Part shown: one piece after another, positions 8,277 through 11,589 of the stretch | Layout of the letters: every line of letters starts with the position of its first letter | Position numbering within the stretch: position 1 is the first letter of the stretch | Origin: Fibrobacterota bacterium | GTDB lineage: Bacteria > Fibrobacterota > Fibrobacteria > UBA11236 | DNA: 64,000 nt | Reading direction: 5' to 3' | Assembly (NCBI GenBank): GCA_947466585.1 | Contig: CANIEU010000003.1 | Coordinates: 124,001 to 188,000, forward strand | Made by a program: the position numbers and the translations under genes | The notes under the pieces: model-generated | Seen by the model: the letters and a program-made list of their open reading frames with translations, nothing else | Database searches by the model: none | What the model was told of the DNA's origin: nothing

Positions 8277-8582
8277 CTAGAATTTTTCGGGTCGCAGTAC
8301 TTCTACATCGGACAAATAAAGAATCATCGCGTAGTTCGAGTAATACTTCGCTTTGAGATGTTCGGCGATGGCACAGGCCGTCTCCTTGGTGCAGACCACT
8401 TCTACGCGGATATTGCCGCTTGGATCCCATGCGGCTTCGCGCACTCCTCGATGACCTTTTCCACGGGCGTCCGTCACGGTATAGCCGTGTGCACCCAAGG
8501 ATTCAAGATCGGAGCACAGATCCTTTTCGAGCGCCGACTCGGTGATCACGGTCAAAAGCTTGCGTAAATGCGAGGTCGCCAT
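8277..8582 (-). CDS. sbtB: PII-like regulator of the bicarbonate transporter (SbtB type)
   Basis: 101-aa cytoplasmic protein with a PII-like ferredoxin fold. It lies one base after the sbtA stop on the same strand, the classic SbtA-SbtB arrangement. GYTVTDARGKGHRGV is the PII signature leading into the T-loop, and IRVEVVCTKETACAIAEHL follows. In cyanobacteria SbtB binds adenine nucleotides (cAMP, AMP, ADP, ATP) and controls SbtA. The C-terminal CGPxGC redox extension of many cyanobacterial SbtB proteins is missing; this one ends VLRPEKF. The assignment rests on fold motifs plus the neighbour. Confidence 0.85.
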   Translation of the reverse strand: MATSHLRKLLTVITESALEKDLCSDLESLGAHGYTVTDARGKGHRGVREAAWDPSGNIRVEVVCTKETACAIAEHLKAKYYSNYAMILYLSDVEVLRPEKF

Positions 8583-8583
8583 G

Positions 8584-9525
8584 TCATCCTCCGAACAAGG
8601 TTACGGCCATACGGTGATAAAGGGGAATGCCAACCAATACATTGAACGGGAAGGTGACCCCTAAAGCCGCAGTCAAGGATAGCGCCGGGTTGGCCTCCGG
8701 CACCGCGAGTCGCATGGCTGCCGGCACGGCGATGTAAGATGCGCTTGCAGCCAAGGTGGCCAGCAAGGTGATGCCGCCGATGGAAAGCCCCATGGCTGCC
8801 CCGAGTGACCCGCCGATCAAGGCGCAGACCAACGGAGTGATGATTCCGAACAGAGCGAGAAAGAGCCCATGCTTCCGGAGATTTCCCGCTTGGGCTGCGG
8901 CGATGAGCCCCATCTCTAATAGAAAGAGCGCGAGCACGCCTTTGAAGATGCCGAAGAACAATCCGCCGATGGGCTCCACGCCTTGCGGACCGGAAATCCA
9001 ACCGACGATCAAGCCGCCCGCCAGCAACACGATGCCTTTGCCTAAAAAGATTTCATGCGCAAGTTTTCCCCAGCGCGTTTCCCGACTTACGCCCCGGGCC
9101 AGTAAAATTCCGACCACGATGGCGGGCACTTCGAGCAGGACCACGAAAAGCGCCATGTATTCCTCAAAGGGAACGCTATGCGCGGTTAGCCATGCCGATG
9201 CAGCCGCAAAAGTCCCCACGCTCACGGATCCGTAATGCGCCGCGAGGGATGCCGCATCGGCTCGTGCCAGCTTCCCAAGCAGCCGCAATACCGGGTACAG
9301 CAACAGGGGCAGCGTGAACCCCAAGGCCAGAACCAGTCCCATCTGCCCGACCAGGCTTCCGAAGGATTGCTTCGACAATTCCACGCCACCTTTAAGGCCG
9401 ATAGAGATCAGCAGAATGACGCTTAGAAATTCATAGATGGCCGGCGGCAACCGCAACTCGGAGCGCAAGAGGCCTGCGAACAATCCGAGCAGAAAAAAGA
9501 GAATGACGGGGTCGAGGGTTGTCAT
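8584..9525 (-). CDS. sbtA: Sodium-dependent bicarbonate transporter SbtA
   Basis: 313-aa inner-membrane protein of the SbtA (former DUF897) family, which imports bicarbonate with sodium. It has about ten hydrophobic segments and characteristic stretches such as RLPPAIYEFLSVILLISIGLKGG, YGSVSVGTFAAA and NPALSLTAALGVTFPFNVLVGIPLY near the end. The start is ATG at 9525, where MTTLDPVILFFLLG begins the first helix; the longer open frame upstream is non-hydrophobic. It is followed directly by sbtB. A gamma-carbonic anhydrase gene at 25160 could act on the imported bicarbonate. Confidence 0.88.
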   Translation of the reverse strand: MTTLDPVILFFLLGLFAGLLRSELRLPPAIYEFLSVILLISIGLKGGVELSKQSFGSLVGQMGLVLALGFTLPLLLYPVLRLLGKLARADAASLAAHYGSVSVGTFAAASAWLTAHSVPFEEYMALFVVLLEVPAIVVGILLARGVSRETRWGKLAHEIFLGKGIVLLAGGLIVGWISGPQGVEPIGGLFFGIFKGVLALFLLEMGLIAAAQAGNLRKHGLFLALFGIITPLVCALIGGSLGAAMGLSIGGITLLATLAASASYIAVPAAMRLAVPEANPALSLTAALGVTFPFNVLVGIPLYHRMAVTLFGG

Positions 9526-9703: not shown

Positions 9704-9733
9704 TTGCCACTGAGCCTTCCCAATATCTATTCT
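9704..9733 (+). promoter_or_regulatory. Promoter of the leu attenuator/leuA/rapA transcript
   Basis: TTGCCA (9704-9709) and TATTCT (9728-9733) are separated by 18 nt. A start about 7 nt downstream of the -10 falls on the A of the leader-peptide ATG at 9740, so the leader peptide would be translated from a leaderless mRNA. Confidence 0.6.
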
Positions 9734-9739
9734 GTACAC

Positions 9740-9799
9740 ATGACCTCCGCGAACGCAAAGAACACCATCTCGCTTCTACTCCTCGGCCTTATCGGCTAA
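9740..9799 (+). CDS. leuL: Leucine leader peptide of the leuA attenuator
   Basis: A 19-codon open frame, MTSANAKNTISLLLLGLIG, ends in TAA at 9797-9799. It has four consecutive leucine codons (CTT CTA CTC CTC, 9773-9784), another Leu codon at 9788 and Ile codons on either side. It lies between a good promoter and a terminator that precedes leuA. Such peptides make the ribosome stall when charged tRNA-Leu is scarce. No Shine-Dalgarno is present, in line with a leaderless start. Confidence 0.85.
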   Translation: MTSANAKNTISLLLLGLIG

Positions 9800-9850
9800 G
9801 GAGCGGCGCTGCGTTTGGAAAAAAGCCCGCTCTTTCGAGCGGGCTTTTTT
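9800..9850 (+). terminator. Attenuator: terminator with a competing antiterminator upstream of leuA
   Basis: The terminator stem is AAAAAAGCCCGCTC (9819-9832), loop TTTC, GAGCGGGCTTTTTT (9837-9850). The segment GAGCGGCGCT at 9801-9810, immediately after the leader-peptide stop, can pair instead with AGCCCGCTC (9824-9832). A ribosome stalled on the Leu codons leaves 9801-9810 free and favours antitermination; one that reaches the stop codon covers it and allows termination. Confidence 0.82.
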
Positions 9851-9870
9851 CTTTCCCCCCAAAATTCCCT

Positions 9871-9896
9871 CAGCCCTTCGACAGGCTTAGGGACCA
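9871..9896. repeat. CCCTTCGACAGGCTTAGGG palindromic repeat
   Basis: CAGCCCTTCGACAGGCTTAG followed by GGACCA forms a small hairpin (CCCT/AGGG). Sequences very close to this (CCCTTCGACAGGCTCAGGG) recur between genes in many unrelated bacterial genomes. Here it lies in the leuA leader, between the attenuator and the gene. Confidence 0.5.
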
Positions 9897-9999: not shown

Positions 10000-11589
10000 A
10001 TGAACGGGACGAACAAGATCACGGAAATCGACACTTCGGGCGGCCGCCGCCCGTTCTTTTACGACGTCACCCTGCGCGACGGCAACCAGGCTTTGCGCCA
10101 GCCGTGGAACGTGGTGGAAAAGGAGAAGGTGTTCCGCCAGCTTCTGAAGCTGGGCGTACAGGGCATTGAGGTCGGCTATGCCGGCGCCAGCGATCTGGAT
10201 TTCGCGTCGGTGGAACATTTGGCGAAGATCGCACAGGCCGAAAACGTGGACATTGTGGTCGCAAGCCTCGCGCGCGCTGTGCCGCGCGATATCGAAAAAG
10301 CCGGCGAGGCGATCCGCCATGCGCCGCGCCCGCGCATCCACACCTTCATCGGCCTGTCGCCGTTCGCGATGGAAAACGTGCTGCGCATGCCGCCCGAAAA
10401 GGTGGCGCAAAAAGCCGTGGAAGCCGTCGCGCTCTGCAAGCAGGTGCTGAACGGCAAAGGCGATATACAGTTCTCCGCCGAACATTTCGGCGACAGCATG
10501 GACAACCTCGATTTCGTGATCGACACCTTCCATCGGGTGATCGAGGCGGGTGCGACGGTGATCAACCTGCCCAACACGGTGGAGCGCTACCGTCCGCTGG
10601 TGTTCGTCGACATGGTTCGCCGCGTCGTGGAGGCGTTGCCGAAACACATCACGGTTGCCGTGCATACGCACAACGATTTGGGCATGGCGACGGCCACTAC
10701 GGTGGAAAGTTTCTTCGCGGGTGCGACGCAGTTGGAGTGCGCATTGAACGGCTTGGGCGAACGCGCAGGCAATACCAACTTGTACGAGGTCGCGGTCGCC
10801 ATCCATAACTGCGGCGTCGAAAACCCCGTGAACATGCGCGAGATCTACGAAACCGCCTTGCAGGTTTCGGAGTGGTCCCACGTGCCCATCTACGAGAAGG
10901 CGCCCCTGGTCGGTTCCGACGTGGTGGCGCATCGCAGCGGCATCCACCAGGACGGCGCGGCCAAAACCAAGGGAATGAAGAAGGGCGCCTATCGGGCCGT
11001 CGAGGGCGATCTGATCGGCCGCGGCGAGTCGGACCGCGTGGTCTTCACTAGTCAGTCGGGCAAGAGCGCGGTGTACGAAATCGTGAAGGCCATAGGCTTG
11101 CCGATCACGCTCGAAGAGGCCGCCGTTTTGCAGCCGGTGTTGAAGACGCGGTCGGAAGCCAAGGGCGGCGAATTGTCCGACGCCGAAGTGGCGGAGGTTT
11201 ACGAGGCCGTGCTGCTCAAGGCCGCCGGTCCGCTGGAGTTCCGCGCCTTGCGTGTTTCGGCCGATGAGACGGAATTCTCCTTCGACATCCGTTGGCAGGG
11301 CGCGGAGAAGACCTTGGTCGGCAAGGGCACCGGTCCTATCGACGCGTGCATGCACGCCGTGGAATCGTTGGGTTTGCACTTCCATCTCGCGGAATATTCG
11401 CAGTTGGCCGTGGACGCGGCGCACAGCGATTCTGCAGCCTTCGCGTTGTCGGAGATCAAGCTGCAGCGTCGCGGCCCAAACGGACAGCCCGAAGGTGCCG
11501 TGGGCATCGGCCGCGGCAAGGACACCGACACGATCAAGGCGAACGTGAAGGCCCTGTTCAACGGGATGAACCGGTTGTTGGCCGCGTGA
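10000..11589 (+). CDS. leuA: 2-isopropylmalate synthase
   Basis: Condenses 2-oxoisovalerate and acetyl-CoA in the first committed step of leucine synthesis; 529 aa. The catalytic TIM barrel has FFYDVTLRDGNQAL near the N-terminus and HTHNDLGMA, the metal-binding HxHND motif. The C-terminal 130 residues match the LeuA allosteric domain that senses leucine (KTLVGKGTGPIDA, then GIGRGKDTDTIKANVKALFNGMNR). ATG 10000 follows GGAAGG at normal spacing. The attenuator upstream supports leucine control and argues against a citramalate synthase. The stop overlaps the rapA start (TGATG). Confidence 0.9.
   Translation: MNGTNKITEIDTSGGRRPFFYDVTLRDGNQALRQPWNVVEKEKVFRQLLKLGVQGIEVGYAGASDLDFASVEHLAKIAQAENVDIVVASLARAVPRDIEKAGEAIRHAPRPRIHTFIGLSPFAMENVLRMPPEKVAQKAVEAVALCKQVLNGKGDIQFSAEHFGDSMDNLDFVIDTFHRVIEAGATVINLPNTVERYRPLVFVDMVRRVVEALPKHITVAVHTHNDLGMATATTVESFFAGATQLECALNGLGERAGNTNLYEVAVAIHNCGVENPVNMREIYETALQVSEWSHVPIYEKAPLVGSDVVAHRSGIHQDGAAKTKGMKKGAYRAVEGDLIGRGESDRVVFTSQSGKSAVYEIVKAIGLPITLEEAAVLQPVLKTRSEAKGGELSDAEVAEVYEAVLLKAAGPLEFRALRVSADETEFSFDIRWQGAEKTLVGKGTGPIDACMHAVESLGLHFHLAEYSQLAVDAAHSDSAAFALSEIKLQRRGPNGQPEGAVGIGRGKDTDTIKANVKALFNGMNRLLAA

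Follow-up and report, generated by a model that had tools for sequence, protein, structure and literature searches.

A probable leucine attenuator with a predicted leaderless control peptide upstream of leuA across the Fibrobacteria

The leader of leuA in a Fibrobacterota MAG (class Fibrobacteria; a 2.2-Mb draft) is very probably a Rho-independent transcription attenuator, ribosome-mediated and responsive to charged leucyl-tRNA, that controls leuA, and its control peptide is predicted to be translated from the first base of the transcript. Classical leucine attenuation had been proposed in an earlier sequence-only reading of this DNA; it is now supported by comparative evidence, with a response to leucine as the expected behaviour. 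It is the best reading of the region because the order of the parts is conserved, the antiterminator and terminator strands covary, the third bases of the leucine codons vary, the codon CTA is enriched in the leaders, and folding calculations yield a switch.

The window, by which we mean the whole analysed stretch of 64,000 nucleotides, comes from a genome most closely related, among named genomes, to Fibrobacteria and Fibrobacteres MAGs. Between positions 9704 and 9850, TTGCCA, an 18-nt spacer, TATTCT, 6 nt, ATG, an open reading frame (ORF) of 19 codons, TAA, GGAGCGG, GCGTTTG and a terminator follow one another in this order. The individual features, all on the plus strand, are as follows:

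9704 to 9709, plus strand: -35 element TTGCCA in the context CTTGCC; most relatives have CTTGNN 16-19 nt before the -10 element.
9728 to 9733, plus strand: -10 element TATTCT, with 6 nt between it and the ATG; relatives have TATAAT, TATCAT or TATATT at equal spacing.
9740, plus strand: predicted transcription start at the A of the leader ATG, deduced from the -10 spacing, with a pyrimidine at -1.
9740 to 9799, plus strand: leader ORF MTSANAKNTISLLLLGLIG with its stop codon, without a Shine-Dalgarno sequence; homologous leucine-run leaders occur class-wide.
9750 to 9757, plus strand: 5′ strand of the outer helix, CGAACGCA, pairing with 9810-9817 in ribosome-free minimum-free-energy folds.
9773 to 9784, plus strand: control codons CTT CTA CTC CTC, with third positions varying and leucine kept in relatives.
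9779 to 9803, plus strand: protector hairpin, in which CTCCT (9779-9783) pairs with AGGAG (9799-9803) and GGCC (9785-9788) with GGCT (9794-9797).
9799 to 9810, plus strand: antiterminator strand AGGAGCGG-CGCT, pairing over 11 bp with 9824-9834 when a ribosome is placed on the leucine codons.
9810 to 9817, plus strand: 3′ strand of the outer helix, TGCGTTTG, with the conserved GCGTTT motif, from the minimum-free-energy fold and the alignment.
9819 to 9850, plus strand: intrinsic terminator AAAAAAGCCCGCTC-TTTC-GAGCGGGCTTTTTT, identified from sequence, fold and covariation between genera.
10000 to 11589, plus strand: leuA2, encoding 2-isopropylmalate synthase, the regulated gene, with AGGAAGGA before its ATG.

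The promoter, leader peptide, stop codon, antiterminator and terminator were each confirmed in the sequence at the positions given by the sequence-only reading, with one small correction to the terminator: its T-run is present and ends at 9850, and the C at 9851 closes the stem. A fifth leucine codon, CTT, lies at 9788-9790; the codon run of the short ORF specifies the very amino acid that the downstream operon serves to make. GGAGCGG (9800-9806) directly abuts the TAA of this ORF. The terminator consists of a 14-bp stem and six T, and the fold of 9740-9870 has a free energy of -51.1 kcal/mol (z = -5.7 against shuffles).

The regulated gene encodes a LeuA2-type enzyme (NF042434, 579 bits against a cut-off of 500), and this independent test bears out the LeuA function that had been assigned to it. 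Enzymes of the same type are held by 111 of the 126 genomes of the class, and the leader element seems to be tied to them, since the best LeuA matches elsewhere in the phylum, beyond families f1-f4, are only ~35% identical. Beside leuA, on the minus strand (window 8277-9525), a divergent gene pair encodes a Na+-dependent bicarbonate transporter (Sbt_1, PF05982) and a P-II protein (PF00543), and resembles sbtA-sbtB. An imperfect palindrome, CCCTTCGACAGGCTTAGGG, with the look of a REP-type element lies between the terminator and leuA (window 9874-9892); its pattern has no second copy anywhere in the genome. When ilvB of the same genome was inspected for a leader, none was evident.

The pairings of the protector, antiterminator and terminator strands are mutually exclusive, and the ribosome position that selects between them was modelled by folding the leader under a mask with a footprint of -16 to +13, a simplification in which minimum-free-energy folding ignores kinetics. 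In the ribosome-free fold, the leucine codons pair with AGGAG inside the outer helix formed by CGAACGCA and TGCGTTTG, and the terminator strand is free. With the ribosome on the leucine codons, the computed pairing of AGGAGCGG-CGCT with 9824-9834 takes in the 5′ arm of the terminator; a ribosome at the stop codon covers GGAGCGG and again leaves the terminator strand free. The number of core pairs engaging the terminator arm in this genome is thus 0 in the free, 8 in the stalled and 0 in the stop state. Formation of the antiterminator on a leucine stall and its absence at the stop, so that ribosome position selects the hairpin in the calculation, was obtained for 93% of genera; with shuffled spacers the figure is 30%. 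In many Fibrobacteraceae it is the antiterminator that prevails in the fold without a ribosome, and the basal state of the switch may therefore differ between lineages. During antitermination the 5′ end may also form a pseudoknot with GCGTTT, but the switch would not need one to work, because GCGTTT is already used within the antiterminator stem in the calculated folds.

Taken as a mechanism, these states suggest the following course of events. RNA polymerase would start at, or within a base of, the leader ATG, and a ribosome would load on the 5′-terminal AUG without a Shine-Dalgarno sequence. When leucyl-tRNA is ample, the ribosome would reach the UAA and cover GGAGCGG, leaving 9825-9832 free to form the terminator; when no ribosome loads, the leucine codons would sequester AGGAG, with the same outcome. 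When leucyl-tRNA is scarce, the ribosome would stall at CTT CTA CTC CTC and release AGGAGCGG, which would pair with CCGCTCTT, block the terminator and allow leuA to be transcribed.

Comparison across the class supports this reading. Among 80 upstream regions of leuA fetched for the purpose, about 70 contain leaders of shared design, spread over at least 13 genera; they combine a peptide containing a leucine run with a terminator whose 5′ arm is matched by a strand close to the stop codon. The sequences of the antiterminator and terminator-arm pairs differ, as in GGCGGGTT/AACCCGCC (genome G001), CAGGAGTG/CACTCCTG (G114), TGGAGCG/CGCTCCA (G025) and CGAAGCG/CGCTTCG (G027). Members of the same genus are not independent, and figures per genus are the reliable ones; covariation was therefore examined with one representative from each of 13 genera, comparing each strand with its own and with permuted partners. 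Each strand fits its own partner better than a permuted one, both for the antiterminator (z = -4.2) and for the terminator (z = -4.8). Covariation of the outer helix at the 5′ end is weaker between genera (z = -3.3, p about 0.001). Free duplex energies of the 5′ end with the spacer that follows the leucine run are thus significant between genera, yet weak against shuffles within the host family, for which reason we treat this helix as secondary; its partner motif GCGTTT is nearly invariant within that family.

The codons themselves point in the same direction. Between relatives, the CT of each leucine codon is kept and the third base varies. CTA accounts for 2.3% of the leucine codons in the 37 long ORFs of the window, but for 19 of 52 in the leaders of the host family (binomial p about 2e-18, a value that ignores shared ancestry). 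The peptides are otherwise poorly conserved beyond the leucine run and a short C-terminal context, and leaders with few leucine codons also exist, such as MTKYFFLPGLF in G108. In genera g5 and g7 this leuA is present and the leader is absent from the upstream regions examined. One group within genus g9 has mismatched terminator stems, which the detector missed, and leaders that are otherwise typical.

A leaderless start of the control peptide would be weakly founded in any one sequence, and draws strong support from being conserved throughout the class. A promoter scan recovers the TTGCCA/TATTCT site with a 9-of-12 match; as a match this good is weak evidence alone, it is the spacing kept by the relatives that supports the promoter call. 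In leaders from all over the class, 6 or 7 nt separate the end of the -10 box from the ATG, and a free search for the best hexamer 0-40 nt upstream of the ATG placed it at 6-7 nt in 59 of 72 cases. A pyrimidine, C or T, precedes the ATG in 69 of 70 leaders, which fits initiation at the A. A Shine-Dalgarno-like word is found before none of the 70 leader ORFs, and before 69 of the 70 leuA genes. Promoter spacing that puts +1 at the start codon and the lack of a Shine-Dalgarno sequence thus occur together. Both had been claimed for the single sequence: the lack of a Shine-Dalgarno sequence holds for all of these leaders, and the start at the A of the ATG, still a prediction from sequence comparison, gains the backing of the class-wide spacing. 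The spacing is 7 in most Fibrobacteraceae, where transcription could start one base upstream of the A.

Leaderless genes appear to be common in the host family, because the pattern TTGACA-N16-18-TANNNT-N6-7-ATG has 46 matches in ten of its genomes and none for the reversed control; TetR-, ArsR- and Fur-like genes are among the matches. A promoter pattern based on CTTG alone is not enriched in the genome studied here (4 matches against 4 for the control). Among individual genes, four that by eye encode Fur-, TetR- and ArsR-like regulators (L194 at G000:C8:4391, L264, L265 and L266) have their ATG 6 nt after a -10 box and are probably leaderless.

A related element precedes cimA, which encodes citramalate synthase in this genome (TIGR00977, 681 bits), and came to light through a covariance model derived from the aligned family. 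Each of the eight family genomes examined has, ahead of cimA, a leader that combines an isoleucine run (LIRII or IIRI in most) with a GCCCGCT terminator; the distance from the -10 box to the ATG is 6 or 7 nt in all but one of the eight. In the present case the feature is:

G000:C7, minus strand (L002), upstream of the cimA start at contig base 95544: cimA leader peptide MQSSKSALLIRIISPQHSGL, with the -10 box TACTTT six bases before its ATG.

The cimA and leuA leaders share the leaderless spacing, a run of control codons, a GAGCGG-type antiterminator strand and the GCCCGCT terminator. They differ in that the cimA leader has isoleucine codons (with a ATTCGAATT core), an antiterminator strand inside the end of the ORF and a weaker switch calculation. 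As the stall/stop switch works in five of eight cimA leaders, compared with 28% of shuffles, an attenuation mechanism is less certain here than at leuA. No isoleucine leader of cimA was seen outside the host family.

Further short ORFs of similar layout occur in genus g2. Six of these (L256, L257, L258, L259, L262 and L263), leaderless by their spacing, are followed by an intrinsic terminator and then by a gene for an EamA-type transporter (PF00892 in L256); five of the six contain A-K-A-W-[HQ]-[VA]-K or a close variant, and they are candidate leader-peptide attenuators. At two other loci (L260 and L261), apparently leaderless ORFs of 43-48 codons with a W-R motif and an SG[LS]L-type end precede a terminator and a gene; L213 and L215 probably share an ORF of this type. 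The product of the gene downstream of the L260 ORF has no Pfam match. From these cases a wider idea can be put forward, tentatively and as something possible rather than probable: that Fibrobacteria as a rule use leaderless initiation for attenuation, a format reused for leucine (leuA), isoleucine (cimA) and, in g2, other leaders, and that a pioneer ribosome reads the switch essentially once per transcript. With a control ORF beginning at +1, the first ribosome would have to load before the outer helix of 9750-9757 and 9810-9817 closes the 5′ end.

Other accounts of the leuA leader accept the attenuator in part or replace it. Transcription might begin several to tens of bases further upstream, giving a genuine attenuator with a short 5′ UTR that lacks a Shine-Dalgarno sequence. 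TATTCT matches a -10 element in only 4 of 6 positions, fewer than in most relatives, the best -10 box of G004 lies 9 nt from the ATG and that of the cimA leader of G121 11 nt away, and ten leaders have a comparable hexamer 14-17 nt upstream; yet the 6-7 nt spacing in nearly all genera, the pyrimidine before the ATG and the missing Shine-Dalgarno word are set against these exceptions, as is the 46-to-none excess of the TTGACA-to-ATG pattern, and we regard an upstream start as unlikely. By analogy with rnTrpL and peTrpL of Sinorhizobium, the terminated RNA, its peptide or both might also act in trans, with attenuation in cis as only part of their role. The product of attenuation would indeed be a short leaderless mRNA (~110 nt), which is also how rnTrpL has been described (PMC7298713), but the poor conservation of the peptides outside the leucine run and the short C-terminal context speaks against such a role, which we consider improbable.

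The account that dispenses with attenuation altogether has a constitutive terminator insulating leuA from upstream transcription, next to a small ORF that arose by chance. The stem is flanked by A and T tracts on its two sides and could act bidirectionally, and similar hairpins are widespread as terminators in these genomes. There is little to insulate against, however, because upstream transcription is divergent (the sbtA-like gene on the minus strand), and the leucine run, stop position, antiterminator and promoter have been kept together in at least 13 genera; we consider this account very improbable indeed. Leucine attenuation from a predicted leaderless peptide thus stays the preferred reading. 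Together with its isoleucine partner on cimA, the class-wide leader offers a natural series in which to ask why a control peptide should be read without a Shine-Dalgarno sequence, and amino-acid control would be expected in a class to which rumen cellulose degraders belong. The rule of a -10 box, 6-7 nt, ATG, short ORF and terminator has already yielded the further candidate leader ORFs described above.

In enterobacteria, leuA is preceded by the leuL attenuator, in which a run of four leucine codons with the rare CTA goes together with protector, antiterminator and terminator strands. The Fibrobacteria leader resembles leuL (RF00512) in its leucine run with rare CTA and in the three alternative strands before leuA, and differs in showing no sequence homology to it, in lacking a Shine-Dalgarno sequence, in preceding a LeuA2-type enzyme and in belonging to another phylum. 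Membership in the Rfam family Leu_leader (RF00512) was rejected, as the score of 27.7 bits, against a gathering threshold of 50, came from the terminator alone. At gathering scores nothing in the whole window matched Rfam, release 15 of which holds no matching family, and permissive E-values gave only sub-threshold matches resting on the terminator hairpin. The family covariance model found its own leuA leaders together with many plain terminators, and is not independent evidence.

Closer parallels in the mode of initiation are found in Actinobacteria, where leuL1, leuL2, trpL1 and ilvL of Streptomyces lividans are leaderless leader peptides (PMC8079986), as is the ilvB leader peptide of Corynebacterium diphtheriae (PMC5784534); there, as predicted here, a control peptide before leuA or other amino-acid genes is read from the first base of the transcript. 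The leuL1 leader of S. lividans, before leuA, has been described as having no typical terminator (PMC8079986). In the LEU element of Actinobacteria a pseudoknot extends to the leuA Shine-Dalgarno sequence (PMC1262725), whereas the Fibrobacteria leader has a full intrinsic terminator and an antiterminator. Identity with the LEU element, which is marked by leucine codons paired with the leuA Shine-Dalgarno box and by the lack of a terminator, was rejected: a terminator is present, leuA starts 150 nt beyond it, and the leucine codons pair with the AGGAG that follows the stop. Sinorhizobium meliloti trpL (rnTrpL) likewise combines a leaderless leader ORF with an attenuator terminator, but has tryptophan codons, precedes trpE(G), belongs to another phylum and has demonstrated roles in trans (PMC7298713). 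A survey from 2010 described such leaders as previously known only in Proteobacteria and Actinobacteria, and added the Firmicutes (PMC2965389). The literature searched, which did not cover the survey of Lopatovskaya et al. (2010), contained no report of leader-peptide attenuation in Fibrobacterota, including Fibrobacter. The type of leader is itself known, from the leaderless attenuators of Actinobacteria and Sinorhizobium; what is new is its class-wide occurrence in Fibrobacteria.
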